DNA from: Geoalkalibacter subterraneus
Lineage (GTDB): Bacteria > Desulfobacterota > Desulfuromonadia > Desulfuromonadales > Geoalkalibacteraceae
NCBI RefSeq assembly: GCF_000827125.1
Contig: NZ_CP010311.1
Span: 682,001 to 746,000, forward strand
Length of the DNA stretch: 64,000 bases
Direction of reading: 5' to 3'
In this document: positions 5,748 through 61,498 of the stretch, piece after piece
How positions within the stretch are numbered: position 1 is the stretch's first letter
Layout: the number at the start of each line of letters is the position of its first letter
The notes under the pieces: model-generated
What the model was told of the DNA's origin: nothing
Database searches by the model: none
What the model saw: the letters and a program-made list of their open reading frames with translations, nothing else
Made by a program: the position numbers and the translations under genes

Positions 5748-7671
5748 CAAGGCAAATTTGTTCTAATTGCATCCAGCAGCCGAGCGCCTGCTCCTTGTAT
5801 TATCGGTCATTCGCAGGTAGTCGAAGACGGCGCGGGGGTTCATGGCGAGCATCCTCATTTTCTGCGCAACGCTGCCGACGCTTTTTGATTTAATCAGACC
5901 GACCGCGAAGCGTCGGAGCCGGGTGATGTTTTCCGGCCCATGGCCGGTGCGTATCCGGCTTCGGTCTTCGTCGTAATTCCAGTCAATGATGTAGTGGCAG
6001 CTGTTTTCTATGCACCAGTGGTTGCGATTAGTCTTGAGGATGCGCTGGGCGTCGGCCTGCTGCGGTGTGTGGCTGGTGATTCCGTAAACGGTTTCGGTTG
6101 AGACTTTCCCGCTCTTTTTGTTGACCCTTTCGCGTTCGACCATGAAAGCCTGACCGACGTGAGGAAAGTCGAGATAGTCGTTGAGCTCGGCGGTGACCCA
6201 GATCCTCCGCGTCTCGATCCGGCCATGGTCGGAGTCGACGGTGACAGCGTGAGGTTCTTGGCGGCCATGAAAATACAGGGTGAGGTCTTCGAGAAGCCGG
6301 GGCTGATTGCCTTTGACGGTGAAATGGTAATGGGCCTGCCTGTCTTCGACCAGGTAGCGGGCCAATCGGCGTTGCGTCAATAGGGCGTCGGCGCTGATGG
6401 TCTTGCCTTCGATGCTGATCGCCTCGAGCAAGGGGATGGCCATTTTGATTTCGTTCGTTTGCTTGACCTCGTCGCTGCCATCGTCTATCGGCAGGAGGCC
6501 GACTTTTTTTGGGTGTGGCAGGTTTTGGTCTCGTGGCCGATCGCGCTCATGATATGCGTCTTGCGGCCTTGCTCGTCGGTGGCGTTGCACATGGTCTTGC
6601 CGTCGATGGCGAGGCTTTCATCCGCGCCTGCGTAAGCCTCGTTCCAACGTTGAAAGCTGCGGTCGAGATGATCCGGATCGACCCTGATGAGGATATCGCG
6701 GATGATGTATTCGCTCGGGACAAGGTACTGCCCTTGTTTTTTACGGCATCCGAAGCGCTCGCGCGCCTTGGGGCCAAGACTTTTGGCCCAATCGGAAATC
6801 GCCTTGTACCCGCGCATCCCGCAAAGCGTCGCCCCGGCGGCAATGGCCAAAACGGTGGACAGCCGGTGGCGTTTCCCTGCGGCGCGGCGCGGGTCGGGGA
6901 TGTCGGTGAAAAACTCTGGCAAGGATCGCATTTGATTGGCTGTCAACAACATTTTCACGTCTCCTGGACAATAGGGCGCCCCAAGCAGGGGGCGGGACAA
7001 GAGCGATTGGGCATTGGACTGCAGCGCACGAACAAACACCATCTTCGGGGACTGTGCGAGGTTGCTATAACCTTGACGGGTTCGGCGAAATCCCTTGGTC
7101 TGACCCAGGCATAGCCAATTGGCCGCCTTGTAAACCGTGCCTTGATAGCGCTGCGGATCGACAAAGGTCTCCATCAGCACAAGCGGATGGCCAAAGCGCT
7201 CCAGCCAGTCGCGCTGGATTCTTTGTTCGCACAGCGCCAAGACGCGCGAGCCCAGATTGGGCAAATGCCACTGCGGCAGGATCAAAAAACGGCTATTGTT
7301 GGCAACCAGCTTCAAGCGGTCATATTGGCGCCGATGATCCCAGCCAATCCACTGGTCGCGAACGGCGCACTTCAAGGCCGCAGCGGAAAAGCTCAGCAAA
7401 GCGACCCACTGCTGGCGCAATATGGCAACGTACCAGAGGGTTTCGCCGATCTTGGGCAGATCTCCCAGATAATGATGCGCTTGCATTGTCTCCCGATATC
7501 GGTCCTCCTCGAGGGCTGAAACGGGTCGTACATGGATTTCTTTCAGATTCACGACAGGGTCTCCAAGGGCAAAGGACGAACCCTTTATACCCCATCGGAG
7601 AACAAATGACCAGAACTTTATGCTGGGGCAAGGCTTAGAGCGTGTTCCCGGGAGGGAACAAATTCGCCCTG
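5748..7671 (-). mobile_element. ISAs1-family insertion sequence, copy 2 (1924 bp)
   Basis: The same length, orientation and 16-bp terminal repeats as copy 1. It is flanked on the left by the 10-bp bridge and on the right by the outer target duplicate, showing that the two copies entered this locus as one unit. Confidence 0.93.
5763..7552 (-). CDS. DruA-domain / ISAs1 transposase fusion, copy 2, read through a -1 frameshift
   Basis: Protein-identical to copy 1 as far as can be read; the two nucleotide differences are silent (Ile codon ATC versus ATT in the IDGK motif, Leu codon TTG versus CTG in RFLILP). The zero frame is a DruA domain followed by the transposase N-terminal region, and the -1 frame carries the rest of the catalytic domain. 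The slippery site is at 6503-6509. The zero-frame ORF begins at the ATG at 7552. Confidence 0.85.
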
Positions 7672-46992: not shown

Positions 46993-47020
46993 TTGACAAT
47001 TAAGGTGTGTTGTGTTTAAT
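46993..47020 (+). promoter_or_regulatory. Putative sigma-70 promoter of the porin-cytochrome operon
   Basis: Perfect TTGACA, a 16-bp spacer and TTTAAT (5 of 6 to consensus). Confidence 0.65.
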
Positions 47021-47211
47021 TGTTGCCAATTCATTCTGTCGGTTTCATTCGATCGTTTGCATTGTTTTAGGTGAAACCCTGATGGCAAGTTAATGTTTTT
47101 ATTCGTTTTAAGCGGTTTTGTTGAGTTTGTACAGGCGTTTCGCATTTCAGTGTGTTGATTGAATTAATGCTGATTTCGGAGCAGATTGAAGTGTTTTGGT
47201 CGGGAGGTTTC

Positions 47212-48450
47212 ATGGGGGTTAAGAAGGGGCTTCTTTTCGGCTTGGTTTCAGCCGTTTTGGTTCTTGGCCCTTTTTTTGACGCCTCGGGCGCCAGGATTTC
47301 CGGTCGCACCAGTACGGTGGTTGAGTGGTTTGATGACGCCAACGGAAAAACCATTGTTCCGGCATATCAGTATGTTCAGTTCAACGCCTATGACCTCGCC
47401 GATAAAGGATATGATTTCCGCATATACGGACGAATCGGAGATGATCTTGCTGGCGAGCGCAGTTCTTCCGCGAAGAGTCGGTTGTATTATGCCTATATCG
47501 ATAAGCAGGACTTTGGGGTTGATTCCCTTGACCTGAGATTGGGGCGTCAGTTCGTCACATCCGCTGCCGGTGCCTCGGTCATGGACGGTTTGCGGCTCGA
47601 TTATGATTTCCTGGACAATTACAGCCTGACCATTTTTGGTGGCGGCGATGTGGCTTACTACGAAGGTTACAATGCCAAGGATGCCGTTGCCGGAGCCGAG
47701 ATCACAGGAACTTTTTTCAAGACGCTCAATCTGGGATTGTCATATCTCGCCCGGTTTGACGGCGGGTTGCTGGCCCAGGAGTTATACGGACTCGATGTCG
47801 AATATGATATCAACGACCTGCTCTATTTCTACAGCGAGACCCAGTATGACTATCTTTCCGATCGTGTCAGCTACTTTCTGGCTGGGATCAGGTATTATCA
47901 GTTCTCCCAGTGGAAAGCGCGCCTTGAGTATCTTTACTCCTTGCCGGTGTTTTCATCTACGTCCATCTATTCTGTCTTCGCTGTTGATGAATACGAAGAA
48001 ATCCTGGCTGAACTCACTTACGACATTGCACCGGGCTGGCGTGTTTTTGGTCGTTACACGCGTGAAATATATCCTGAATTTTCCGACGCTAATGTATTCG
48101 AGGCCGGCCTTGAAAAGCTGCGCACCGACCGTTGGGGCGGTTATCTCTCGGGGGTGTACCGCGACGATGAGGATGGACAGGATCTGAAAGGGTTCAAGTT
48201 TCGCTGTTCGTATCTGTTCAACAAGCACGTACTTGCCGGTGCCGGAGTGGAAGTCGATGTCTTTGACAGGCAGATCGATTATTTCGACATCGATTCATCC
48301 AGTGATGAGACCACCAGTAAGCGCTACTGGGTAGATGCAACCTTATTCGTAACCAAGGCGATCAATCTGCAGGCGAAGGTCGAACGTATCGAAAGTGATC
48401 TGTGGGATTATTACAATCGCGGACGGGTACGTCTGAACTTCATTTTCTGA
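47212..48450 (+). CDS. Outer-membrane beta-barrel protein of a porin-cytochrome conduit
   Basis: 412 residues. A signal peptide (KKGLLFGLVSAVLVLGPFFDASGA) is followed by many amphipathic strands rich in Tyr/Phe and a terminal aromatic strand ending VRLNFIF, the outer-membrane barrel signature. It stands directly before two multiheme cytochromes with 17 bp to the next start, the order of Geobacter porin-cytochrome (Pcc/Ext) operons, in which such barrels house the cytochrome wire. A GGGAGG site precedes the ATG. The sequence itself did not identify a named family member. Confidence 0.8.
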   Translation: MGVKKGLLFGLVSAVLVLGPFFDASGARISGRTSTVVEWFDDANGKTIVPAYQYVQFNAYDLADKGYDFRIYGRIGDDLAGERSSSAKSRLYYAYIDKQDFGVDSLDLRLGRQFVTSAAGASVMDGLRLDYDFLDNYSLTIFGGGDVAYYEGYNAKDAVAGAEITGTFFKTLNLGLSYLARFDGGLLAQELYGLDVEYDINDLLYFYSETQYDYLSDRVSYFLAGIRYYQFSQWKARLEYLYSLPVFSSTSIYSVFAVDEYEEILAELTYDIAPGWRVFGRYTREIYPEFSDANVFEAGLEKLRTDRWGGYLSGVYRDDEDGQDLKGFKFRCSYLFNKHVLAGAGVEVDVFDRQIDYFDIDSSSDETTSKRYWVDATLFVTKAINLQAKVERIESDLWDYYNRGRVRLNFIF

Positions 48451-48467
48451 CGGCAGGGAGTTTCCTT

Positions 48468-49322
48468 ATGATGCGCAAAGTTTTATTAACTCTTGCCCTG
48501 GTGGCGCTTTCAGCGTCGGTGGGATGGAGTGTGGACTTTGATCATCGCGATCATCTCGAAGAATATTTTCCGGGGCTCTCCTGCCATGTCTGCCATGTGC
48601 CTGATGCGAAGAGCATCGTGCCGGACAAGGAGGTCTGCCTTTTCTGCCATGACAAACCCCTGGTCGATGCAAGCCGGCTTGGTACCACCAAAACCCACGG
48701 AGTGACATGGGCGCTCAACCATCGCACGCAGGCGAAAAGTGACGATATGGAATGCACCGCCTGCCATCGCCAGAGTGATTGCTTTGACTGCCACGCAGCC
48801 GGTTTTGCCGACGAGCAGGGCGATTTCGGCAATGCCATGATCAATGTGCATAAAAGCGATTTCCATGTGACGCACCCGGTTGCAGCGCGAACCGATCAAC
48901 AGCTCTGCGCCAGCTGCCATGAATCGCGGTTTTGCAGTGACTGCCACGACAGCTTCCGCGGGCGTACCGGGCGTGCAGGAGGCCCGTCTCATGCCCGCTT
49001 TTTCGGGATTGACGGTATCGGAGATATTGAAACGGTTCATGCCGGCATGACTCCTGAGACCAACTGCGATGACTGCCACCTACAGGGTTCCGTTGCACCA
49101 GGTTTTCACGACTGGTCAACAGGCCATGCCCGGGATGCGCGGCGCAATTTGACGACCTGCCAGGCTTGTCATCCTGGCGGCGACGTCTGTATGAACTGCC
49201 ATAGCGCAAAAGGCGGCGTGGTGGGCTTCAGCCCGCATGGAAAAAACTGGGGCGACCGCGCCGGTCGTCTCAAGGACGCAAGCAACGGCAAAACCTGCAG
49301 GCGCTGTCATGACCAATATTGA
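48468..49322 (+). CDS. Periplasmic decaheme c-type cytochrome
   Basis: 284 residues. A cleavable signal peptide (MMRKVLLTLALVALSASVGWS) precedes ten CxxCH motifs (CHVCH, CLFCH, CTACH, CFDCH, CASCH, CSDCH, CDDCH, CQACH, CMNCH, CRRCH) packed into about 260 residues, with additional His residues for bis-His ligation. By position it would be the periplasmic electron wire that inserts into the barrel, as MtrA or OmaB do. No lipobox is present. Confidence 0.87.
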   Translation: MMRKVLLTLALVALSASVGWSVDFDHRDHLEEYFPGLSCHVCHVPDAKSIVPDKEVCLFCHDKPLVDASRLGTTKTHGVTWALNHRTQAKSDDMECTACHRQSDCFDCHAAGFADEQGDFGNAMINVHKSDFHVTHPVAARTDQQLCASCHESRFCSDCHDSFRGRTGRAGGPSHARFFGIDGIGDIETVHAGMTPETNCDDCHLQGSVAPGFHDWSTGHARDARRNLTTCQACHPGGDVCMNCHSAKGGVVGFSPHGKNWGDRAGRLKDASNGKTCRRCHDQY

Positions 49323-49372
49323 AGCCCTCGCGACCTGTGACTCTGCATCGTAATAAGGTGATGATCGTTCGT

Positions 49373-50836
49373 ATGGCCCAATTGAGATCGTTCCTGAAAT
49401 TTATGCCCTTTGCCGCCGCACTTCTCGGCTTTATGTTGCTGGGAGGATGTGGAAGCAATAGCGGCAGTGGCGATGCCCCGCAGGCGGAGGCGCCAGTGGG
49501 CAGCTACGGGGTGGATGAGAACGGTATCCGTTATACGGGGAGCAGCGGTTGCGTGGCCTGTCATCAGCTGTTGACTTTCGGTGAACTCGATCCCGAGGCC
49601 AGTGCGGAGATCGTTGCAGACTACCTGCGCGGCCGCCACGCCCAGGGCAGCCTTGATGCAGCGGCGCCCCAGGCGTGTCTTGATTGCCATGATCCGATTG
49701 GCGACGGATCGACAATTGAGTCCTTTCTGCCTGCCGGCGCCTCAATCCCTGAAGCGGGGCTGGCGGCCGTTGGTTGTGAAAACTGCCACGGCGCCGGAGG
49801 CGACCATTTTGGCGACGGGCCGCTCCCCCGCAGTGTGCCTGGTTTTGAAACCTGTGGGAACTGTCATGACCTTCTGGCTCCGGCCAGCCCCCATGTCGGG
49901 GCAGAAGACAGCCTCCTTGCAAACTATCAGGACAGTCGCCACGCAACCTCGGTGCGGGCCCCGGGCAACGCCCTTTGCGGTCGGTGTCACAGCGATGAAC
50001 TATTCCGCAATTATCATGAAAAGACGGTTGATCTTGAAGCGGCTCAATGGGAAACTTTTTTCTCCGGAGTGACTCCTCCCTCCGATCCGAGCCCGGTGCA
50101 ATGCCGTACCTGTCACAACCCCCACAGTGGCGCACTGAGAACTTCGTCGATTGTCGACAATGATCGAGAGGTTTTCTCCGGAGAATTCAACCTTTGCACT
50201 GCTTGCCATCAGGTTAATCTCGAGTATGATTTCGATAGTGAAAGCGGTACCTACAGCTTTCAGCTCGATGAGAGCCGGGACACCTATCTGGCGACGGGCC
50301 ACCCCGCGACCGATGCCCTCATCGAGGATAGCCACTTTAAATCGGGGGCGGATATTTTCGGTTACAACATCAACGCTTCTGCCCGCAACGCCTGCACCCA
50401 GTGTCACAGCCCGCATGCGGCTTCTCGGTTTGTTGCCGAGGATTCCATGGCTATTGCCGAGGCGTGGGCCCGTTCCGGACATGCAGATTATCAGGGGGGC
50501 GCGTTTACTCACCAATTCGATCCCGATAGCGACGGCGCCTGCCTCAAATGTCATAACGGGGTGGAATTCGTTCGCTATGTGAACGGGGTGCCCCCCGTCG
50601 ACCTGGATGCTGCCAGGCAGGGCGGCGTTGTCGCCTGCGTCGCCTGCCATGATCTTGATGATTCCAATAACGCCGATGGCGCACTGAGGCAGATTGATGA
50701 AGTTGCATTCCCCTCCGGCGCGATTGTCAGTCTGAACCAGGCCAATAATCTCTGCCTCGAGTGTCACCAGGGGCGGTCGTCGACACGCCAGGTTGATGAA
50801 CGCATCGCCGACAAGGGGAGTAGGGGACGGGAGTAG
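49373..50836 (+). CDS. Multiheme lipoprotein cytochrome (11 CxxCH), probably 3'-truncated by a RAYT element
   Basis: 487 residues. The lipobox LLGGC lies near residue 24, followed by 11 CxxCH motifs from CVACH to CLECH. By position it is the outer-surface partner of the barrel/decaheme pair. The last motif sits in CLECHQGRSSTRQVD, which in related proteins (recalled) is followed by a long further section with more hemes. Here the frame runs into the left end of a RAYT element and stops within 20 codons at KGSRGRE. The ATG at 49373 follows AAGGTG at good spacing. The gene is co-transcribed with the two upstream genes. Confidence 0.8.
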   Translation: MAQLRSFLKFMPFAAALLGFMLLGGCGSNSGSGDAPQAEAPVGSYGVDENGIRYTGSSGCVACHQLLTFGELDPEASAEIVADYLRGRHAQGSLDAAAPQACLDCHDPIGDGSTIESFLPAGASIPEAGLAAVGCENCHGAGGDHFGDGPLPRSVPGFETCGNCHDLLAPASPHVGAEDSLLANYQDSRHATSVRAPGNALCGRCHSDELFRNYHEKTVDLEAAQWETFFSGVTPPSDPSPVQCRTCHNPHSGALRTSSIVDNDREVFSGEFNLCTACHQVNLEYDFDSESGTYSFQLDESRDTYLATGHPATDALIEDSHFKSGADIFGYNINASARNACTQCHSPHAASRFVAEDSMAIAEAWARSGHADYQGGAFTHQFDPDSDGACLKCHNGVEFVRYVNGVPPVDLDAARQGGVVACVACHDLDDSNNADGALRQIDEVAFPSGAIVSLNQANNLCLECHQGRSSTRQVDERIADKGSRGRE

Positions 50837-51856
50837 GGGACGTTGTTTACCTGTTGCCTAAGTTTCACTTTCATGCTACTTAAAGCTTATGCCACGAACA
50901 GCACGCCTCGACATCCCAGGTCTTACTTATCACGTCATCGCTCGCGGGGTGAATCGCTGCGACCTGTTTCTTGATGACAACGACCGGCGCAAATTTCTCA
51001 GCCGTTTCTCCGATCTTCTCACGGAAACTCAGACTCAGTGTTTTGCCTGGACGCTGATGTCCAACCATTTTCACCTGCTGCTGCGCCCTCAGCAAACAGG
51101 GCTTGCCCACCTGATGCGCCGGCTTCTCACCGCTTATGCCATCTACTTCAATCGTCGTTATGACCGTAGCGGACATCTTTTCCAGAACCGGTATCGATCC
51201 ATCGTGTGTGATGAAGATACCTATCTGCATGAACTTGTTCGCTATATCCATCTCAACCCTCTGCGGGCCGGGGCGGTGAAAGAGTTGAACGAGTTGGATG
51301 AATATCCCTGGTGCGGACATGCGGTCGTCATGGGGAAGAAAGCCTTGCCTGGGCAAGCAGTCAATGAGGTTCTGGAGTTGTTTGCGAACAATGGGGCGCA
51401 GGGACGAATCAGGTATCGCTCATTTATTGCTGATGGTCTTGATTTGGATGCGCAGGAGAAAATCACCAGGAGGGGGGCTGCTCGTGAAGGAGAACCGTTT
51501 CCCGATCCCCATATCTTTGGCGACGAAGGATTTGCCGAAAGGCTTCAGGCCCTGCAACAGCGCGAGCGGAGATCCAAAAAGGGGATGCCGGTCGATGAAA
51601 TTGTCAAGCGTGTCTGTGGTGAGTATAAAATTGAAGCCGGAGAACTGGTTCGCAATACGCGAACTGCGAAAATTGCAGAGGTGCGGGCCGTTATCTGCTA
51701 CCTTGCTGTTCGTATCGTTGGTTACAGTGGTGTTGTGGTCGGAAGGTACGTCAATCTCGAACGAGCGGGTGTAAGTCGCGCGGCTGCGCGAGGCGAGCTG
51801 GTTGTCAAAAATTGTCCGCAATTGTTGAAGTTGGTTGACGAGTAAACAACGTCCGT
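50836..51856 (+). mobile_element. RAYT-type element, copy A
   Basis: The ends carry matching inverted termini GGACGTTGTTTAC and GTAAACAACGTCC around a Y1 transposase gene. It lies between the truncated cytochrome and the convergent OmcA-like gene. Just before the left end, a 13-bp sequence (ggagtaggggacg) occurs twice in a row, with its second copy running into the left terminus. Confidence 0.75.
50889..51845 (+). CDS. REP-associated tyrosine transposase (RAYT), copy A
   Basis: 318 residues. The N-terminal Y1/HUH domain (TYHVIARGVNRCDLFL, the HxH motif in SNHFHLLLR, the tyrosine segment DEDTYLHELVRYIHLNPLRAG) is followed by a C-terminal DnaA-like helix-turn-helix (VDEIVKRVCGEYKIE, VVVGRYVNLERAGVSRAAARGEL). 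It would nick and rejoin single-stranded DNA at REP-like hairpins. It differs from copy B at only a handful of residues. Confidence 0.88.
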   Translation: MPRTARLDIPGLTYHVIARGVNRCDLFLDDNDRRKFLSRFSDLLTETQTQCFAWTLMSNHFHLLLRPQQTGLAHLMRRLLTAYAIYFNRRYDRSGHLFQNRYRSIVCDEDTYLHELVRYIHLNPLRAGAVKELNELDEYPWCGHAVVMGKKALPGQAVNEVLELFANNGAQGRIRYRSFIADGLDLDAQEKITRRGAAREGEPFPDPHIFGDEGFAERLQALQQRERRSKKGMPVDEIVKRVCGEYKIEAGELVRNTRTAKIAEVRAVICYLAVRIVGYSGVVVGRYVNLERAGVSRAAARGELVVKNCPQLLKLVDE

Positions 51857-51939: not shown

Positions 51940-51970
51940 AAAAAAAAGGAGGCAGCACAAAGCTGCCTCC
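51940..51970 (-). terminator. Terminator of the OmcA-like gene
   Basis: A 9-bp perfect stem GGAGGCAGC/GCTGCCTCC with a 5-nt loop. The minus strand has eight T residues after it; the plus strand has only CTTTCGCCTTTT. It therefore mainly serves the minus-strand gene. Confidence 0.85.
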
Positions 51971-51991: not shown

Positions 51992-54337
51992 CTACTCGTG
52001 GCAAACGGTGCAGGATTCTACAGGGAATCCGTCGAAATAATCAATATGATCATATCCGCCGAACATGTCACCCCCTTCAGCCGTCATGTGTCCACGCAGG
52101 ACGCGGTCTGCCAATTCATCATCGGTGATTTCGTGGCAGGAGTAGCACACGGAGGCTGTGGGGCCATTGACCCCCGATCCGTTCGCATATAGGTTCTTCA
52201 TCTCGTTGCCGATTACGCCGAGGCGCATTTTGGGGTCAACAGGAAATTTATGGCTGTCGTTTATGTGACAGGCGTTACAGTCCACCACGGTGTTGGGATA
52301 GGTGACATGGGTATATCCGCCGTCATAAACACCATCGACGATGTGGTCGCGCCGGCGATCGAACTTGCCGCGTTTCTCACCCACGCCATGGATTGCGTGC
52401 ATGATGTACATGAAATCGACGGTGCCTTGCACTGTACTGCCATCGCGACTCAGAGAGCCGGCGTTGTGGCAGGTGACACAGGCCATGATGTCGTTGTCGG
52501 CCGTAGTGCCGTGTCGGCCGATCGTATTATGACAGCTCAGACAATTTTCGGTGCTGACGATCTGGCGACGCTCTCCAAATTCTTCAACCAGGCCGGAGCC
52601 GAGAGTGAACGTTCTGACGACGCTGCTGGCATTGATGCCAGCAGGGCCGCGTTCAATTACTACGAATCCGTTGCGGCCTTCCATGGCACCGTCAGGAAGG
52701 ACCGCGAAGGTTGTGACCGCTGTTGTGTTGTCACCATCGACAGGGGCTGTGTTTCCGCTATCAGCCTCGACCTGGAAGGGGCGGCCGGCGTCACCGTTGC
52801 TTGAAACGCCGGAACCATCGTTCGTCCAGTCATCGCCATACCCCCAGCCGATCCCGAGACGCACGGATTTTTCGAGATAGATGTCCTCGCCTTCGAAGAT
52901 GTCCTGATATACTCCATCCTTCAGTACACGCCAGGTGACTTTTGCTTCTGAGCCGGTAACGGCACCTTCAATGCTCAGGATTTCCATCTGATAGCTTCTT
53001 GCAGCAGCCAATTGATCAAGCGTGGCGCCTACCTGGTGAAACTCCTCTGCGCTGGGAATATCACCCTCTGAATGGCAGGAAGTGCAATCACTATCCTGGT
53101 AATGAAATGCATTTGTCCCGCTTTCCCTGTCCGTGTGGCAGGAGGTGCAAGCGCTGAGCTTAACTTTGTTCCATAATTGATTGGCAGTGGGAATCCTTCC
53201 TTTGTGGCAGGAAACACAATTCGCGACCCCAGGGTTGCCGGGGTAGGGGGTCTCGTCACTGGGATGAGGAGTCCTGCCGAAAGTCCAATCGGGATAGCGC
53301 ACCTGCTGGAAGGGTTTGCCGTCAAGTTGGAAGTCTTCGATGCCGGCATGAATTCCATGGATCATGTTGGTCATGCTCAGGGTAAACCAGCCATCGACTT
53401 CCGCAACGGATTCATTGCGATCAAAGGTAAAGTCGTTATGGCAGTTTGCGCAGACATTGGGATCATGGCGCTGTGAACCATGTGCGTTGAAAGCTGTTGC
53501 AGCGGTGCCATGGCAGGAAGCGCAGGATGCTATATCCATAATCTTATGGGGATTGCCGACGAGGGTCACATTGCCGTCGTCGTCAAACTGGAAATGGGCC
53601 AGTGCATTGAAGCGGTAGTCCCCGTTGCGGCTGTCGCCGGTGCGACTGGTCACGGCGACGCGATATGTTGCCCCCGCCTCCCAGGTGCTGAAGGTGTTGA
53701 TGTCTGCTAGAATGCCCGCAACGAAGTTGCAGTAGTCAGGGCTGATGTCACTGCATCCGAACGCTTCTGCATCTGGAGCCGAACCGTCGGATGTGGGGCT
53801 GGTCCAGTAGGCGCCGTTGCTGAAGTCGATGACCGTATCACCATCGGTGTATGTGTACTGGAACGTTTTTTCTTCAATGGGTGAAAGTGCGCTGTCATTT
53901 TCCTTGCGCAGGTTCCCGGCGCGAATAACCCTGGGATTGTCACCCGTTTGGCGATCTCTTTGAAGCATGCTTACCCATGTGCCCGCTTCGGGAACCCATT
54001 TGGCAATGGTGAATTCGGCATGCATCCGATCTCCCTCAAACCCGGGAGTTTTAAAAGTCAGTGAAACCTGCCCATTGTTGAGAGAAACCTCCTTAATTTC
54101 TGCATTTTGGTCAAAAGGTTTGACTGGAAGAGCGTGCGCGTCTTCAAATGATAATGTGAGACCTTCTCCGGGTGTGCCGGGTGGCCCGGGAGGGCCCTGT
54201 TCGCCTGGTGCGCCATCTTCACCTGGTGCCCCCGGTGCGCCATCTTTTCCATCGTCGCCGGAACAGCCGGCTAGAATCAGGCTGAGCGCGAAAAAGGGGA
54301 TCAGGAGATAACGATTAAACATGCAAAACCGCTTCAT
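51992..54337 (-). CDS. OmcA/MtrC-family decaheme lipoprotein cytochrome with collagen-like stalk
   Basis: 781 residues. The signal peptide has the lipobox LILAGC. About 30 residues of Gly-X-Y repeats follow (GAPGAPGEDGAPGEQGPPG), then the OmcA/MtrC layout: an N-terminal beta domain, a first pentaheme domain (CASCH, CANCH, CVSCH, CTSCH, CTSCH), a second beta domain and a second pentaheme domain (CLSCH, CVTCH, CNACH, CYSCH, CTVCH). It is expected on the outer surface as a terminal reductase for metals or an electrode. A GGAGG site precedes the ATG. A consensus sigma-54 promoter lies about 170 bp upstream. Confidence 0.92.
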   Translation of the reverse strand: MKRFCMFNRYLLIPFFALSLILAGCSGDDGKDGAPGAPGEDGAPGEQGPPGPPGTPGEGLTLSFEDAHALPVKPFDQNAEIKEVSLNNGQVSLTFKTPGFEGDRMHAEFTIAKWVPEAGTWVSMLQRDRQTGDNPRVIRAGNLRKENDSALSPIEEKTFQYTYTDGDTVIDFSNGAYWTSPTSDGSAPDAEAFGCSDISPDYCNFVAGILADINTFSTWEAGATYRVAVTSRTGDSRNGDYRFNALAHFQFDDDGNVTLVGNPHKIMDIASCASCHGTAATAFNAHGSQRHDPNVCANCHNDFTFDRNESVAEVDGWFTLSMTNMIHGIHAGIEDFQLDGKPFQQVRYPDWTFGRTPHPSDETPYPGNPGVANCVSCHKGRIPTANQLWNKVKLSACTSCHTDRESGTNAFHYQDSDCTSCHSEGDIPSAEEFHQVGATLDQLAAARSYQMEILSIEGAVTGSEAKVTWRVLKDGVYQDIFEGEDIYLEKSVRLGIGWGYGDDWTNDGSGVSSNGDAGRPFQVEADSGNTAPVDGDNTTAVTTFAVLPDGAMEGRNGFVVIERGPAGINASSVVRTFTLGSGLVEEFGERRQIVSTENCLSCHNTIGRHGTTADNDIMACVTCHNAGSLSRDGSTVQGTVDFMYIMHAIHGVGEKRGKFDRRRDHIVDGVYDGGYTHVTYPNTVVDCNACHINDSHKFPVDPKMRLGVIGNEMKNLYANGSGVNGPTASVCYSCHEITDDELADRVLRGHMTAEGGDMFGGYDHIDYFDGFPVESCTVCHE

Positions 54338-54765: not shown

Positions 54766-56147
54766 TCAGGCGGGTTTGCGAATCCCGAGCTTTTCCATCT
54801 TGCTATAAAGCGTACCACGCGCGATACCCAAGGCCTCGGCTGCGTGGGAGAGATGCCAGCCTTTTTGTTCAAGTACCTCTCGGATGAGGGCTGCTTCTGC
54901 TGCAGCAAGAGAACTGTTCTTCAGCGTCAGGTTGAAGTTTTGGTCCGCAGCGTTGCCAACCGACTCGGGAAGGTGCCCAGGAAGGATTTTTGACCCTTGG
55001 CAGAAAACGACGGCATGCTCAATGGTGTTGGCCAGCTCACGGACATTTCCCGGCCAGTCGTGCTCACAAAGTAAAGCCATGGCTGATTTGGCGATACCGT
55101 CAATATTCTTCCCTGTTTGACGCCGGTACTTCTTGAGAAAAAAATTTGCCAGCAGGGGGATGTCGGATTTACGCGATCGCAAGGGGGGGCAGTCAGAGAA
55201 ACCACATTGATGCGGTAGTACAGGTCTTCACGAAAGGTCTTTTCCTTGATGGCGGCCGTCAGGTCGCGGTTGGTGGCGCAGATGATGCGGGTGTCGACCT
55301 GAATGGTTTCGGTGCCTCCCACCCGCTGAAAATTGCCGAGTTCCAGAACCCGCAGCAGGGTGACCTGGGTCTGGATCGGGATGTCGCCAATCTCGTCGAG
55401 AAAGATCGTTCCTCCGGAGGCCGCTTCAAAGAGACCGCATTTGCGCGACGTGGCGCCAGTGAAGGCTCCTTTTTCATGCCCGAAAAGGGCGCTGCTGATC
55501 AGGGCTTCGTTGAGTGCAGCGCAGTTCACAGGGATAAAAGGCTGCTCTCGGCGCGTGCTGCGAGCATGGATGGCTTCAGCGATCAATTCCTTGCCGGCGC
55601 CACTTTCTCCATGGATCAGGACAGTTGTATCCGTTTGGGCTACTTGGCGGATTTTCTCGTAAATTTCGAACATGGTGGCATCTTTGCCTACCAGGTTTTC
55701 GAAGCGAAAACCTGTTCCGGGAGTGGGCGCGGAATCTTGCAGCAATTCCTTATGCTGGATAATCTTGTCCAGCTGCCGGCGGATCATGTCCATGTCGAGG
55801 GGTTTGAGAATGTAGTCATAAGCCCCGGCTTTGATCGCCTTGACTGCCTCTGCCGTCGAATCGACACCTGTGAGCATCAGCACGAATGTGTCGGGGAAAT
55901 TTTTTCGGACCTGTCGAAGTAGTTCCATCCCATCCATGCGCGGCATGAGCAGGTCGGTAAAGACGATATCTACGGTGGTTTCGTTCATCAGGCGCAGCGC
56001 CTCTTCGCCGCTTTGCGCGGTGGTTATGACGAAGCGTTCCTCGTCGACCATTGCCCGTTGGAAGAGTCGGCAGTATGCGGCTTCATCATCGACGTAAAGG
56101 ATATGAATTTTAATCGGTGCCGAGGAGTTATGATCGAATGAAGTCAT
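54766..56147 (-). pseudogene. NtrC-type sigma-54-dependent response regulator with a one-base frameshift
   Basis: The domains, in order, are a receiver (VDDEAAYCRLF, phospho-Asp in FTDLLMPRMDG, K in LKPLD), an AAA+ domain (Walker A GESGAGKE, sigma-54 contact GAFTGA, GGTIFLDEIGD) and, in a different frame, the rest of the AAA+ domain (SRKSDIPLLANFF, WPGNVRELANTIEHAVVF) plus a Fis-type helix-turn-helix (AAEALGIARGTLYSKM). The shift sits in a run of seven G (55183-55189). An eighth G would restore the usual LPPLR-like AAPPLRSRKSDIPLL. Real mutation, phase variation or assembly error are all possible. The start overlaps the receiver gene by 4 bp. Confidence 0.85.
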
Positions 56148-56560
56148 GATTCGCCTGTTGTCGGGGATTCCGTAAGGTCGGTTTTTGGAAGGGACATGGC
56201 CTGGGCTATCGCCTTCTGCAGATCTTTTGCACTCCAGGGTTTGCGCAGGAATGCGTGTATTTTTCTATCCTCCAGGGATTGTTTTGCCGTGTTGATGTCG
56301 GCATACCCGGAAAGGATAATACAGAAAGCAGAAGGGTTGATCTCGGCGGCTTCTTCTAAAAAATCAATACCGTTCATCCCTGGCATGCGGTAATCCGACA
56401 GGATGATTTGCACGGGCCGCAGGGAAGGTAACAGGGCCAGTCCTTCTTTGGCCGACAGTGCGGTATAAATTTCAATATCGATGTCGAAAAGTTGCCTTCT
56501 GATGACATTGAGAATGTGAACTTCGTCATCTACGCACAGCATACTCAGGGGCTCAGGCAT
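56144..56560 (-). CDS. Single-domain response regulator
   Basis: 138 residues: a receiver only (MLCVDDEVHILNVIRRQLF, phospho-Asp in ILSDYRMPGMNG, T/S switch in ILSGYAD, Lys in FLRKPW), with a short Ser/Thr tail. It lacks an output domain and may relay or sink phosphate from the kinase. It overlaps the kinase gene by 8 bp and the NtrC-type gene by 4 bp, forming a three-gene operon. Confidence 0.93.
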   Translation of the reverse strand: MPEPLSMLCVDDEVHILNVIRRQLFDIDIEIYTALSAKEGLALLPSLRPVQIILSDYRMPGMNGIDFLEEAAEINPSAFCIILSGYADINTAKQSLEDRKIHAFLRKPWSAKDLQKAIAQAMSLPKTDLTESPTTGES

Positions 56561-58586
56561 GAGATGCCTCCAGCCTGTTTTGAAAGGGGAGGCGAATGGT
56601 AAAAACGGTGCCGCTTCCGGGTACGCTCTCGGCTGAAATCTTGCCCCCGTGTTTTTGGACGATGTCGTAGACGATGCTCAGGCCCAGGCCTGTTCCAACG
56701 CCAACTTCTTTAGTGGTGAAAAACGGTTCGAAAATTTTCGAGAGGTTTTCTTCGGGAATCCCTTTGCCTGTGTCTTTAATGGCAATATAGAGGTCGGTGT
56801 CGTCCGCCCAGGTTTTGATCCCGATTTCCCCCCATTGGTCAATGGCATGCGAGGCGTTGATCAGAAGATTCATGAACACCTGGTTGAGTTGCTGAGGAAA
56901 GCAGAAAATTTTTGGGGTTTGTCCGTAATCTCTTGTTATTGTGGCCTTATAGCGGAGCTCATTCCAGATAATGCTGATTGTACTTTCCAGGCATTCGTGG
57001 ATATCGGTTAATTGGGCTTCAGGTTCATCGAAACGAGAAAAACCCTTGAGGTTGAGGACGATTTTGTTGACTCGGTCTGTTCCCTCGAGACATTCCTCCA
57101 GCACTGCCGGGAGTTCCTCAAGGATATAATCAATTTGAAGAGTGCGACGGCTGCTGCCGGTTTTCTCATACGCTTCTGCCGGTCCTGATTTTTTTAACGC
57201 CTGATCTTGAATCGCGATAAATTGGGAAATTTTTTCCCAGAAACCGCCCAGAACCTCGATGTTTCCCTTCACAAAGCCGATGGGGTTGTTGATGTCGTGG
57301 GCGATGCCTGCCGCAAGCTGGCCGATGCAAGCCATTTTGTCCTGCTGCAGGATAGTCGCCTGCTGCTCCTGAAGGTTCTTGTATGCTTCTTCGAGCGCTG
57401 TGCGCCCTGCTTCGATTTCTCTATTTTTAGCGCGCAGCTCACTGGTTCTTTCGTAAACACGCTGTTCAAGGTTTTCATTCAGGCGGGTCAATTCCTTTTC
57501 GGCGTGGCGGCGCTCAGCGATCTCGATTTCCAGCTTCTGGTTGGTATGAGCCTGTTTGTCGAGTTCTCTGTGAAGGCGGCGGCGGTTTTCAGCCAGGCGT
57601 CGGTCGACGTGCCCGAGAACCCGGTAGGAAAAAGCAAAAAGCCCAGAGCTCAAAAGCAGGCTGAAAAGAATGACCTGTGCGATAAAGACTCGGAAAGAGG
57701 CCATTTCCTGGGTAATGTCATTGAGGATAATGAAGTCGCCGACGGTGCGCCCAGCGGCATCTCTGAGCGGAAATGCACGGCCACGATAGGAGCGGCCCTC
57801 CGTATGAAGGACTGCCCCATGCTCATGGTAAATGACCTCCCCGGATAACAGTTCTGCCGCGACCTCAGGTGGCACGGAAACCGTTTGATCGATCAGGACC
57901 ATTCCCGGCAGCAGGTCCCAGTCGGCCTGGCGACCAAGCAGGGCCATCCCCTCCTCCCAGGACTGGCGATTCAGAAACTGTTTGTCGAGTGCGAGGATAA
58001 AATCAATGTCGGTAATGCTCTTGATCTCATGAAGTATGTGGTCGACCTCCTGGCCGAGCTCGATATACCCGGCCAATTTCCCCTCAACATGCCAGGGGTA
58101 GACGAGTCGGAGAGTGAATGTCCCGTTTGCTCCCAGTTCCAATCCTGCAGCCGGTTTTGCCTGTGTTATGGCGCGTCGCATTGTGACGCGCTGGGGCGTG
58201 TCGGCAGTGTTTTCCGGATGGTAGACTCGCAGGAAGTGGTGGCCATTGACATCATGAAAATAAAAATGAGTGATCTGCTGCTGGTGATAGAGGCGATCGA
58301 GCAGAGCCGAGCCGTGTTCCAGTAGAAGTTGGCGATCTTCGGCAATCATGGCATTCTGAAAGCGTTTTTGCTCGGCAATGAATTGAACCACTGAAAGCAT
58401 GGATTTTTCACGGCTGGCCACTAGACCGTCGAAAAGGTTCTGCACTCGCTCATAACGATGACTTAAATCATCGGCAGAATCCTGCATGCGGATACGGTAG
58501 CTTGCATAGAGAAAAGAGCTGATGAGAACGAGGAAGGTGAGCGTGAGTGGAACCAGAACCTGCCTTCTTATATTTTTCTCGTGCAT
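56553..58586 (-). CDS. Sensor histidine kinase with periplasmic dCache-type domain
   Basis: 677 residues. The parts, in order, are a membrane helix ([20 protein letters not shown]), a periplasmic sensor of about 280 residues like dCache_3 ([40 protein letters not shown]), a second helix ([17 protein letters not shown]), a long coiled coil, a HisKA domain with [11 protein letters not shown], and a HATPase_c domain ([37 protein letters not shown]). It probably senses an extracellular small molecule or redox cue and feeds both downstream regulators. Confidence 0.92.
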
Positions 58587-58842: not shown

Positions 58843-59000
58843 GGTTGCCTATCAAAAAACAGGGCAATCGCATAGAAAAAGATGGATGAGATTGTCAAGC
58901 GTGTCTTTGGTGAGTATAAACTTAAAGGGAGTGGTTGGAGCGCAAAAAAAACAATCGTCGCTTATGCAACTGATGGAGTTGGTTGACGAGTAAACAACGT
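58843..59000 (+). repeat. RAYT-derived remnant R1
   Basis: It shares its left edge (tgcct.tcaaaaaa.cagggcaatcg), middle (gatgagattgtcaag) and right end (ggttgacgagtaaacaacgtccccgggttga-type) with R2 at 61323. The middle encodes DEIVK..GEYKL, as in the RAYT C-terminus, and the end encodes LMELVDE stop. It is an internally deleted, non-autonomous relative of the RAYT copies. Confidence 0.7.
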
Positions 59001-59013
59001 CCCCGGGTTGAAG

Positions 59014-59346
59014 ATGGAAAATTTCTCGTTTATCCCTGCAAGGCTGAATTCGTTGATCTGCCGTTTGGCGGAGTTGCCCTATGTGGATAAAATCATTCTG
59101 TTCGGATCGCGGGCGCGTGGGGATGCACAGCCGCGATCCGACATCGATCTGGCTGTTTTCGCGCCGGGGGCGACCTCGCAGCAATGGGTGCAGCTTGTTG
59201 ATCTGGTGCAGGAGGCGCCGACGTTGCTCGCGATTGATCTGATCTGGTATGAAGAGGCTGGTGAAGAGTTGAAAACGAAAATCCGGCAGGAAGGGAAAGT
59301 TCTTTATGATCGATCAGAAAGCGGCGCAGAGTCTCGAAAATCTTGA
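59014..59346 (+). CDS. MNT-type nucleotidyltransferase antitoxin
   Basis: 110 residues. The nucleotidyltransferase motif is GSRARGDAQPRSDIDLAVF (GSx10DxD form). Such minimal nucleotidyltransferases pair with HEPN toxins and neutralise them by AMPylation. The gene starts only a few bases after R1, so the remnant may supply its upstream signals. It overlaps the HEPN gene by 41 bp. Confidence 0.85.
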   Translation: MENFSFIPARLNSLICRLAELPYVDKIILFGSRARGDAQPRSDIDLAVFAPGATSQQWVQLVDLVQEAPTLLAIDLIWYEEAGEELKTKIRQEGKVLYDRSESGAESRKS

Positions 59347-59701
59347 GCGTGCCTTGAAACGGCTGGAGGAGGCCCTTCGGGAGCCGGAAAGCAACTCCCT
59401 GGTGATTGACGGCACCATCCAGCGGTTTGAATTCGTCATTGAGCTGTATTGGAAGACATTCAAGCGATTGCTGGCGATCGAAGGCCTTGAGGCAAACACG
59501 CCGCGCGAAGCGTTGCAGAAAGCTTATGCCGCTCACTGGATCGATGACGAAGCCGGCTGGCTGCAGATGCTGCGCGATCGCAACGAAACCTCCCATATCT
59601 ACGATGAAGCGGCCGCCCGGCGCATTTATGCGCATATTCAGCAGAATTTTCCTGTGCTTAAAAAAACTTTCCTGTTTTTGAAGAAACGTTTTATCAACTG
59701 A
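59306..59701 (+). CDS. HEPN-type toxin (nucleotidyltransferase substrate-binding family)
   Basis: 131 residues, all-helical. It shows the HI0074-like opening LERALKRLEEALREPE, FEFVIELYWKTFKRLL and the Rx4H site RNETSHIYDE, which is the RNase active motif of HEPN toxins. It is translated overlapping the MNT gene, the standard toxin-antitoxin arrangement. Confidence 0.85.
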   Translation: MIDQKAAQSLENLERALKRLEEALREPESNSLVIDGTIQRFEFVIELYWKTFKRLLAIEGLEANTPREALQKAYAAHWIDDEAGWLQMLRDRNETSHIYDEAAARRIYAHIQQNFPVLKKTFLFLKKRFIN

Positions 59702-59725
59702 GATAACTTCTTACTCACCCGATGT

Positions 59726-59914
59726 GGCAATAATGGGGACGTTGTTTACCTGTTGCTTAACTATATTTTTCATGCTACATACGTTGCATGCCACGAACAG
59801 CACGACTCGATATTCCTGGTGGCAATAATGGGGACGTTGTTTACCTGTTGCTTAACTATATTTTTCATGCTACATACGTTGCATGCCACGAACAGCACGA
59901 CTCGATATTCCTGG
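59726..59914 (+). repeat. 95-bp-period tandem duplication of the RAYT copy B left end
   Basis: A 94-bp block (59726-59819) that includes the GGGGACGTTGTTTACC terminus, the leader and the first ten or so codons is repeated exactly at 59821-59914. Only the second copy leads into the intact transposase. Confidence 0.92.
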
Positions 59915-60850
59915 ACTTACCTATCACGTCATCGCTCGCGGGGTGAATCGCTGCGACCTGTTTCTTGATGACAACGACCGGCGCAAATTTCTCAGGCGGT
60001 TCTCCGATCTTCTCACGGAAACTCAGACTCAGTGCTTTGCCTGGACGTTGATGTCCAACCACTTTCACCTTCTACTGCGCCCCGGGCAATCCGGTCTTGC
60101 CCACCTGATGCGCCGGCTTCTCACCGCTTATGCCATCTACTTCAATCGTCGCTATGACCGTAGCGGACATCTTTTCCAGAACCGGTATCGATCCATCGTG
60201 TGTGATGAAGATACCTATCTGCATGAACTTGTTCGCTATATCCATCTCAACCCTCTGCGTGCCGGGGTGGTGAAAGAATTGAACGAGTTGGATGAATATC
60301 CCTGGTGCGGACATGCGGTCGTCATGGGGAAGAAAGCCTTGCCTGGGCAAGCAGTCAATGAGGTTCTGGAGTTGTTTGCGAACAATGGGGCGCAGGGACG
60401 AATCAGGTATCGCTCATTTATTGCTGATGGTCTTGATTTGGATGCGCAGGAGAAAATCACCAGGAGGGGGGCTGCTCGTGAAGGAGAACCGTTTCCCGAT
60501 CCCCATATCTTTGGCGACGAAGGATTTGCCGAAAGGCTTCAGACCCTGCAACAGCGCGAGCGGAGATCCAAAAAGGGGGTGCCGGTCGATGAAATTGTCA
60601 AGCGTGTCTGTGGTGAGTATAAAATTGAAGCCGGAGAACTGGTTCGCAATACGCGAACTGCGAAAATTGCAGAGGTGCGGGCCGTTATCTGCTACCTTGC
60701 TGTTCGTATCGTTGGTTACAGTGGTGTTGTGGTCGGAAGGTACGTCAATCTCGAACGAGCGGGTGTAAGTCGCGCGGCTGCGCGAGGCGAGCTGGTTGTC
60801 AAAAATTGTCCGCAATTGTTGAAGTTGGTTGACGAGTAAACAACGTCCCC
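59735..60850 (+). mobile_element. RAYT-type element, copy B
   Basis: Bounded by GGGGACGTTGTTTACC and GTAAACAACGTCCCC. It lies between the HEPN gene and the broken PIN gene, and its right end abuts PIN coding sequence. A cccgatcggcccgtcc-type direct repeat follows. Confidence 0.75.
59883..60839 (+). CDS. REP-associated tyrosine transposase (RAYT), copy B
   Basis: 318 residues, the same layout as copy A: HUH motif in SNHFHLLLR, tyrosine segment in DTYLHELVRYIHLNPLRAG, C-terminal helix-turn-helix. The few differences from copy A (RPGQSG versus RPQQTG, AGVV versus AGAV, GVPVD versus GMPVD) show recent spread. Confidence 0.88.
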   Translation: MPRTARLDIPGLTYHVIARGVNRCDLFLDDNDRRKFLRRFSDLLTETQTQCFAWTLMSNHFHLLLRPGQSGLAHLMRRLLTAYAIYFNRRYDRSGHLFQNRYRSIVCDEDTYLHELVRYIHLNPLRAGVVKELNELDEYPWCGHAVVMGKKALPGQAVNEVLELFANNGAQGRIRYRSFIADGLDLDAQEKITRRGAAREGEPFPDPHIFGDEGFAERLQTLQQRERRSKKGVPVDEIVKRVCGEYKIEAGELVRNTRTAKIAEVRAVICYLAVRIVGYSGVVVGRYVNLERAGVSRAAARGELVVKNCPQLLKLVDE

Positions 60851-60855
60851 CGATC

Positions 60856-61030
60856 GGCCCGTCCCCCGATCGGCCCGCTCGGTGTTGCGCCGAGCCTCTT
60901 CAACGGCTAGGCGGCAGGTGAGCGTGCGCCAGTGCCCGTCGGTAGATAGCTTGATAATCAGTGCTGATTTGCCGGAGGGGTTGTGCGCGGCGGTAAACAG
61001 GATGTTGGCGTCGAGGAATAATCGCATCAT
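60856..61030 (-). pseudogene. N-terminal fragment of a PIN-domain toxin
   Basis: MRLFLDANILFTAAHNPSGK is the PIN start with its first catalytic Asp, followed by LAVEEARRN. Coding then enters the right end of RAYT copy B. The start overlaps the AbrB stop as ATGA, the normal antitoxin-toxin coupling. The C-terminal catalytic residues are lost from this fragment, so the toxin is presumably dead. Confidence 0.75.
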
Positions 61031-61278
61031 TGCCTGCGCTTGAGCTTTTTCAGTATGGCTTCTTTCTCAGCGACAAGAAGCTGGTCATCCTTTTCCCACT
61101 GCGCGATATCCTGATCTGAATACATCTCGATTTCAAGCACTGCCGCGGGCCTTAAAACCACCTCTCCGTTCCGGTCCTCCGCGATAAGGACTCCGCCAGG
61201 CTGTATCCCCAGTTTTTTTCGCATTTCCGCAGGCAGGGTGATTTGCCCACGACTTGAAACGATAATGTTTTCCCGCAT
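61027..61278 (-). CDS. AbrB/MazE-type antitoxin
   Basis: 83 residues. The swapped-hairpin DNA-binding domain VSSRGQITLPAEMRKKLGIQPGG is followed by an acidic/basic tail (MYSDQDIAQWEKDD) for toxin binding. It is intact while its PIN partner is broken, so it is now an orphan antitoxin that may still bind DNA. Confidence 0.85.
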   Translation of the reverse strand: MRENIIVSSRGQITLPAEMRKKLGIQPGGVLIAEDRNGEVVLRPAAVLEIEMYSDQDIAQWEKDDQLLVAEKEAILKKLKRRQ

Positions 61279-61322
61279 GGTTTGTTCCTCCGTATGTATG
61301 AATTTCAGTATTGCAGCATTTC

Positions 61323-61498
61323 GGCTGCCTGTCAAAAAAACAGGGCAATCGTATAGAAAAAGATGGATTCCGGTGGATGAGATTGTCAAGTGTGTCGTTG
61401 GTGAGTATAAACTTGATGGAAGTGGGAGAATCCGTAAAATAGCAATTGTCGCTTTATGCAACTGATGGAGTTGGTTGACGAGTAAACAACGTCCCCGG
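61323..61498 (+). repeat. RAYT-derived remnant R2
   Basis: The longer relative of R1, with the hairpin cctgtcaaaaaaacagg at its left edge, PVDEIVKCVVGEYKLDGSG coding in the middle and the LMELVDE-stop/gtaaacaacgtcc end. It lies just upstream of the AbrB gene. Confidence 0.7.

Follow-up and report, generated by a model that had tools for sequence, protein, structure and literature searches.

Does an unfamiliar pairing of heme counts mark a new kind of extracellular electron conduit, or a known kind that has been damaged? The question is raised by a gene cluster in Geoalkalibacter subterraneus Red1, carried on a 64,000-nucleotide stretch of contig NZ_CP010311.1 (positions 682,001–746,000; hereafter, the window). 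At window positions 46993–50836, a first-pass annotation made from the sequence alone described a promoter followed by three tightly spaced genes: an outer-membrane barrel, a periplasmic cytochrome with 10 hemes in about 260 residues, and a multiheme lipoprotein with "11 or more" hemes. The arrangement was likened to that of porin-cytochrome (Pcc) conduits, with the heme counts taken as a hint of a distinct conduit class. We conclude with good confidence that the cluster encodes a conduit of the OmbB-OmaB-OmcB (Pcc) family, of a subtype with a decaheme periplasmic cytochrome (hereafter, the wire), and that its third gene has been truncated.

All three genes lie where they had been placed (Table 1), and the gaps between them are indeed short: 17 nucleotides between barrel and wire, and 38 between wire and lipoprotein. 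The barrel start codon is immediately preceded by GGGAGG. The wire starts at ATG 48468 or 48471, giving a protein of 284 or 283 residues, of which ~263 remain once the predicted signal peptide is removed; with 10 CXXCH motifs, the heme density reported for it stands. The third gene (likely ATG 49361, stop 50836) encodes 491 residues with lipobox LLGGC and 11 CXXCH. The promoter claimed ahead of the cluster corresponds to a promoter-like site matching 11 of 12 consensus bases; it was not listed by our promoter scan because the scan accepts only second hexamers with A as their second base. A search of 118 related genomes returned wire relatives in 63 at E 1e-5 (51 at E 1e-30 or better), at no fewer than 79 named loci (our own locus and genome numbers carry the prefixes L and G). 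Among the matches listed, a porin homolog is present at 73 of the 79 loci, so the cluster is not a chance assembly; at the other six, the wire gene sits at or near a contig end. A lipoprotein homolog occurs somewhere in 60 of the 79, again among the matches listed.

The cluster is assigned to the OmbB-OmaB-OmcB (Pcc) family because its barrel and wire, in that order, have homologs in the porin/8-heme pairs of Geobacteraceae. Those loci encode a barrel of about 405 residues, an 8-heme wire of about 231 residues and a 9- or 12-heme third protein—the OmbB-OmaB-OmcB arrangement as described (PMC4245776, PMC4589669). The barrel is 27–31% identical to the Geobacteraceae porins over about 400–437 residues, and the wire 31–39% identical to the 8-heme wires over 214–285 residues. 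As in Pcc clusters generally, a porin, a periplasmic multiheme cytochrome and an outer-membrane multiheme lipoprotein lie on the same strand, the third being truncated here. The kinship with known Pcc operons that the first-pass annotation had named as decisive was thus found, at the level of homology and by way of the Geobacteraceae loci; and since published Pcc wires span 5–14 hemes (surface cytochromes, 1–15; PMC4245776), the suggestion of a distinct class is not upheld. Complete ombB-omaB-omcB clusters have also been assigned to Desulfuromonas strains (PMC8235581). Published Pcc Group II holds Desulfuromonas acetoxidans, Desulfurivibrio alkaliphilus and Desulfurispirillum indicum (PMC4245776), while the taxa in which we find the 10-heme form include Desulfuromonas and Desulfurivibrio. 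Because a Desulfurivibrio relative (L058) has the 10-heme form, the decaheme-wire form is, by comparison of taxa, very probably Group II.

The heme count of the wire was examined in an alignment and tree of 70 of the 79 loci plus the window sequence (L053, L055, L089, L102, L105, L107, L109, L112 and L116 were left out as fragments, as a duplicate or as not chosen). Ten hemes are found in 50 of the 71 rows, nine in 11 and eight in 10. Each of the ten heme positions in the window wire has an aligned counterpart in the 10-heme rows, as eight of them do in the 8-heme rows. Relative to the 10-heme form, the 8-heme Geobacteraceae wires are missing two CXXCH motifs, one N-terminal and the other internal; the 9-heme wires are missing the N-terminal motif. 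As judged from this alignment, the window wire adds these two hemes to an OmaB-type set of eight. In the tree, the 10-heme label fits one side of a branch with support 93/92, with the 8- and 9-heme rows intermixed; a long 10-heme row (L090) stands separate from the remaining 10-heme rows. One apparent extension of the series, an expanded wire of 487 residues in genome G003 (G. ferrihydriticus), was rejected as a scaffolding artefact: X characters are flanked by repeated stretches, and the barrel gene at the same locus is fragmented in the same way. The artefact excluded both genes from use, and G003 served solely for its third gene, OmcA/MtrC gene and regulators.

Other known systems differ. 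MtrCAB of Shewanella is alike in having a barrel, a 10-heme wire and a surface cytochrome, and a neighbouring gene in Red1 even belongs to the OmcA/MtrC family; however, the proposed profile comparison with MtrAB, once run, separated the two. Searched at E up to 1, the barrel matches no Pfam or NCBIfam model, TIGR03509 for MtrB/PioB included, and the wire has only generic Pfam matches (cytochrome c7, MtrC-type domain) and none to the MtrA/DmsE model TIGR03508 at E up to 1. The proposed structural check, made on the barrel, was informative in one respect and neutral in another. An AlphaFold2 model (mean predicted local distance difference test score, pLDDT, 92.9) has 22 strands, within the published range of 18–22 for Pcc porins, which is described as lower than that of MtrB (PMC4245776); the corresponding figure for MtrCAB is 26–28. 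Foldseek matches in the PDB are generic barrels (ushers, OprD-like), with no MtrB entry in the best 50 of 932, and so speak neither for nor against any barrel family; PDB sequence searches gave weak matches only. The G. sulfurreducens conduits ExtABCD, ExtEFG and ExtHIJKL are of the same broad kind, but are set apart, by their description, in gene order and wire heme count (PMC6148476). OetABI of syntrophic sulfate reducers, reported in Desulfuromonadales too, likewise combines a porin, a periplasmic cytochrome and an extracellular lipoprotein cytochrome (PMC10553843, compared by description).

Several observations weigh against the assignment. Firstly, the order of porin, periplasmic multiheme and outer-membrane multiheme matches the characterised G. 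sulfurreducens OmbB-OmaB-OmcB complex, but the CXXCH counts do not: the wire has 10 against 8, and the truncated third protein 11 against 12. These counts are not required of Pcc clusters. Secondly, the link to that complex would run through the Geobacteraceae loci, its named proteins having been compared by description only. Thirdly, the third proteins of the family are very diverse, and the window lipoprotein shares 22–26% identity with Geobacteraceae third genes where these are detected. Finally, the wire modelled poorly in AlphaFold2 with hemes absent (pLDDT 62); a structural claim for the wire was rejected on this ground, and its place in the barrel is given by analogy only. A further difference may lie upstream: G. 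sulfurreducens has the TetR-family orfR/orfS upstream, whereas in Red1 the gene directly upstream is cytochrome b5-like and on the minus strand. No TetR-type orfR was identified, the genes beyond the cytochrome b5-like one not having been assigned to families.

Outside the 8-9-10 series, three loci (L067:2432-4233, L071:5579-7395 and L078:1754-3700) each carry a distant barrel relative paired with a 5-heme wire relative, near 10-heme conduits. From sequence, these pairs suggest that a single barrel family may serve 5- to 10-heme wires. The barrel alignment covers 62 of the 79 loci plus the window sequence.

The third heme count has a different origin. Eleven CXXCH motifs were counted, in line with the first-pass "11 or more", but the figure reflects truncation of the gene by a transposase element rather than the design of the protein. 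Comparison with relatives indicates that the gene is cut after heme 11. The closest relative, at L043, is a 663-residue frame with 13 hemes, 52% identical across residues 30–483; it extends 175 residues beyond the window protein, with two further hemes and a C-terminal stretch conserved among relatives. Used as a query, this tail matches 42 of 84 relatives' loci. It has no significant match in the window (best E 0.30) and none in the Red1 genome at E 1, in a search run without a positive control of its own kind. A complete third gene lies beside a 10-heme wire in 35 cases; it encodes 13 hemes in 18 of them and 11 in none. This set includes L045 and L051, both OmcA/MtrC-type; the script that assembled it found no third gene at L048, L058, L068, L073, L074, L080, L084, L090 and L116, and its wire pattern missed L053, L061, L069, L102, L104 and L112. 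G. ferrihydriticus has a syntenic locus, whose third gene encodes 785 residues with 13 hemes and precedes a convergent OmcA/MtrC gene.

The exact junction between gene and element falls between about 50815 and 50836. A second copy of the element, at 59830–60848, is 96% identical to 50836–51854, and both copies end in GGGGACGTTGTTTAC and its inverse. The encoded transposase scores 50 bits against PF01797 (cut-off 23) and 71 bits against NF047646, under the cut-off of 80. The second copy lies in a cluster of whole and decayed element copies (58985–61497), with extra element ends at 58990, 59735 and 61482. Beside these copies are a nucleotidyltransferase/HepT-like pair (PF18765, PF08780; about 59020–59700, plus strand) and a gene with a MazE-type antitoxin domain (PF04014; about 61030–61278, minus strand).

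Table 1. Features of the conduit locus and its surroundings (window coordinates)
Feature	Position	Strand	Basis or remark
Promoter-like site, TTGACA-16 nt-TTTAAT	46993..47020	+	position confirmed; function predicted
Outer-membrane barrel protein, OmbB-type, 412 residues including signal peptide	47212..48450	+	ATG 47212, stop 48450
Periplasmic decaheme cytochrome (wire), OmaB-type plus two hemes	48468..49322	+	10 CXXCH; alignment, tree
Truncated outer-membrane lipoprotein cytochrome, OmcB-type position	49361..50836	+	ends at element junction
Transposase element ending the lipoprotein gene	50836..51854		second copy in window; shared ends
Y1 (IS200-like / REP-associated type) transposase, 318 residues, DnaA-type C-terminal domain	50889..51845	+	PF01797
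9-bp hairpin then T run, probable terminator of the OmcA/MtrC-type gene	51948..51970	-	seen in sequence
OmcA/MtrC-family decaheme lipoprotein cytochrome, 781 residues, 10 CXXCH, lipobox LAGC	51992..54337	-	TIGR03507
Sigma-54-dependent (NtrC-type) response regulator gene, split over two frames	54766..56147	-	domain matches

Beyond the element lies the OmcA/MtrC-family gene, whose product scores 261.6 bits against the curated TIGR03507 cut-off of 209.3 and also has the hemes and lipobox of the family. Its probable terminator was likewise not listed by the scan that was used for promoters. Past this gene, a minus-strand two-component cluster (histidine kinase, receiver protein and sigma-54-type regulator, the last at 54766–56147; further frames at 56144–56560 and 56553–58586) is also conserved in G. 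ferrihydriticus. In Red1, the regulator's Response_reg and Sigma54_activat domains fall in one frame and its AAA lid and HTH_8 in another; the G. ferrihydriticus counterpart is an uninterrupted frame of 521 residues. Elsewhere in the window, two 275-residue frames at 3829–4656 and 5763–6590 share identical first 45 residues and are probably a duplicated mobile element. Elsewhere in the Red1 genome (G000:C1) are very large frames with cytochrome c3-type matches near 473400–477600, 611800–617500, 646000 and 1088300 (1346, 3279, 1956 and 1869 residues).

By analogy with MtrAB and Pcc complexes, the barrel of the OmbB-OmaB-OmcB-type conduit would hold the 10-heme periplasmic wire. Electrons would pass from small periplasmic cytochromes to the wire, and on to a lipid-anchored multiheme cytochrome at the surface. 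The simplest role for the additional N-terminal heme would be to extend the wire at its periplasmic end. In Red1, both the barrel and the wire are encoded by intact genes and the predicted surface terminal is shortened, for which three outcomes can be proposed: (i) the terminal may work with 11 hemes, (ii) it may have become an adaptor for the OmcA/MtrC protein, or (iii) the locus may be unused.

The second outcome extends the OmbB-OmaB-OmcB assignment rather than opposing it. We offer it tentatively, as an idea with a real but minority share of our confidence: decaheme-wire Pcc barrels may form hybrids with OmcA/MtrC proteins, in some lineages via a short 8-heme lipoprotein adaptor, and the truncation would have pushed the Red1 conduit that way. 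Electrons would then run from barrel and wire through the shortened lipoprotein to the neighbouring OmcA/MtrC cytochrome, a possible terminal reductase. This cytochrome is the sole TIGR03507 match over the cut-off in the Red1 genome and lies 1.2 kb from the conduit genes. The same genome has no match to MtrB (TIGR03509) at E 0.01, and its 22 partial matches to TIGR03508 all fall under the cut-off (best 99.7 against 192.2 bits). The Red1 gene is, on the other hand, convergent with the conduit genes and outside their operon.

Related genomes speak to physical linkage. An OmcA/MtrC match at E 1e-20 was found in 24 of the 118, and 13 of these also carry a wire; the two genes are less than 4 kb apart in 11 of the 13, 6.2 kb apart in one and on different contigs in one. 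Chance would account for about 0.07 linked genomes against the 11 observed, although these genomes are related by descent. Wires entered this count at E 1e-30 or better; matches short of that (about 160–200 residues, 30% identity) are uncounted, and some of these lie near OmcA/MtrC genes (e.g., G051, G095). Presence is a different matter: co-occurrence of the two genes is not significant (Fisher p 0.25), and 11 of the 24 OmcA/MtrC genomes lack a wire. Of 20 OmcA/MtrC candidates, 19 match TIGR03507 at 1e-10. A second cytochrome at L055 was not counted as OmcA/MtrC, having no NCBIfam match at 1e-5, and a blast label "mtr" (14 of 84 loci, E below 1e-15) was dropped in favour of the family model.

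Possible forms of such a hybrid occur at individual loci. At L045 and L051, the gene directly after the wire is itself of the OmcA/MtrC family, over the cut-off. Naturally short 8-heme lipoproteins, which align with about residues 1–358 of the window lipoprotein, are found at eight loci (L047, L058, L059, L061, L085, L086, L087 and L089); at five of these the next gene matches TIGR03507, at L058 alone over the cut-off. Such lipoproteins may serve as OmcA/MtrC adaptors. Outside our data, transcription of an extracellular OmcA homolog in Desulfurivibrio alkaliphilus is reported to differ on ferrihydrite, and the same report marks putative Pcc cluster cytochromes in a figure legend (PMC12545173); this is compatible with co-function, and no proof of it. 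Counting against the hybrid, weak MtrB-model matches occur in 48 of the 118 genomes, and mtrAB genes are reported in Desulfobacterota (PMC12133095). Strong matches (<1e-20) occur in four genomes, one of which carries an OmcA/MtrC gene, on another contig, and TIGR03509 exceeds its cut-off in two of the 118. Clusters of this kind are described as showing non-orthologous replacement of their surface lipoprotein (PMC6148476), so a hybrid would follow a known tendency, its partner being the unexpected part. In the literature searched, which excluded most subscription papers, we found no statement of a Pcc–OmcA/MtrC linkage or of the Red1 insertion.

The third outcome, that the truncated lipoprotein is non-functional, the locus decaying and unused, and electrons leaving Red1 by other conduits, we give a minority share of confidence close to that of the hybrid. 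It draws on a pair of lesions in a 6-kb stretch (the lipoprotein truncation and the frame-split sigma-54-type regulator) and on the wide conservation of the lost tail. In G. sulfurreducens, moreover, a strain without the omcC cluster is reported to lose at least 89% of its Fe(III)-citrate reduction when omcB alone is deleted (PMC4589669). Set against this, the barrel, wire and OmcA/MtrC frames are open with all heme motifs kept, and naturally short 8-heme versions exist.

A conduit working inwards, with Fe(II) or metallic iron as the electron donor, is improbable. G. ferrihydriticus has been proposed to draw electrons from steel via porin-cytochrome complexes, but the same corrosion study credits uptake mainly to MtoA-like genes and links an OmcB homolog to Fe(III) reduction (PMC12016550), and Geoalkalibacter Red1 is described as metal-reducing and electrode-respiring (PMC4357744). 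The study also names a G. ferrihydriticus locus at which an OmcB homolog adjoins a putative terminal Fe(III) reductase, and which may be related to the one described here. Least credible of all is a conduit class unrelated to Pcc, which could appeal to heme counts other than 8/12 and to the 10-heme side of the supported branch, but is countered by the Geobacteraceae homology, the continuous heme series, the place that Group II already gives to Desulfuromonas and Desulfurivibrio clusters, and the 10-heme form of the Desulfurivibrio relative L058.

What remains is an OmbB-OmaB-OmcB-family conduit whose wire and terminal carry different lessons. The 8-9-10 heme series on a single barrel family is a natural experiment in wire length. 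The truncation is a warning: in Red1, a type strain used in work on anodes and metal reduction, a genome search found a single conduit of this family, and that copy is damaged. Mtr and Pcc are described as phylogenetically unrelated, and Desulfobacterota OmcA/MtrC genes have been read as belonging to a complete Mtr pathway (PMC12133095); the linkage seen here suggests that some of these genes may belong with Pcc barrels. If the hybrid arrangement is true, many Desulfuromonadales OmcA/MtrC proteins would serve Pcc barrels, not MtrAB.

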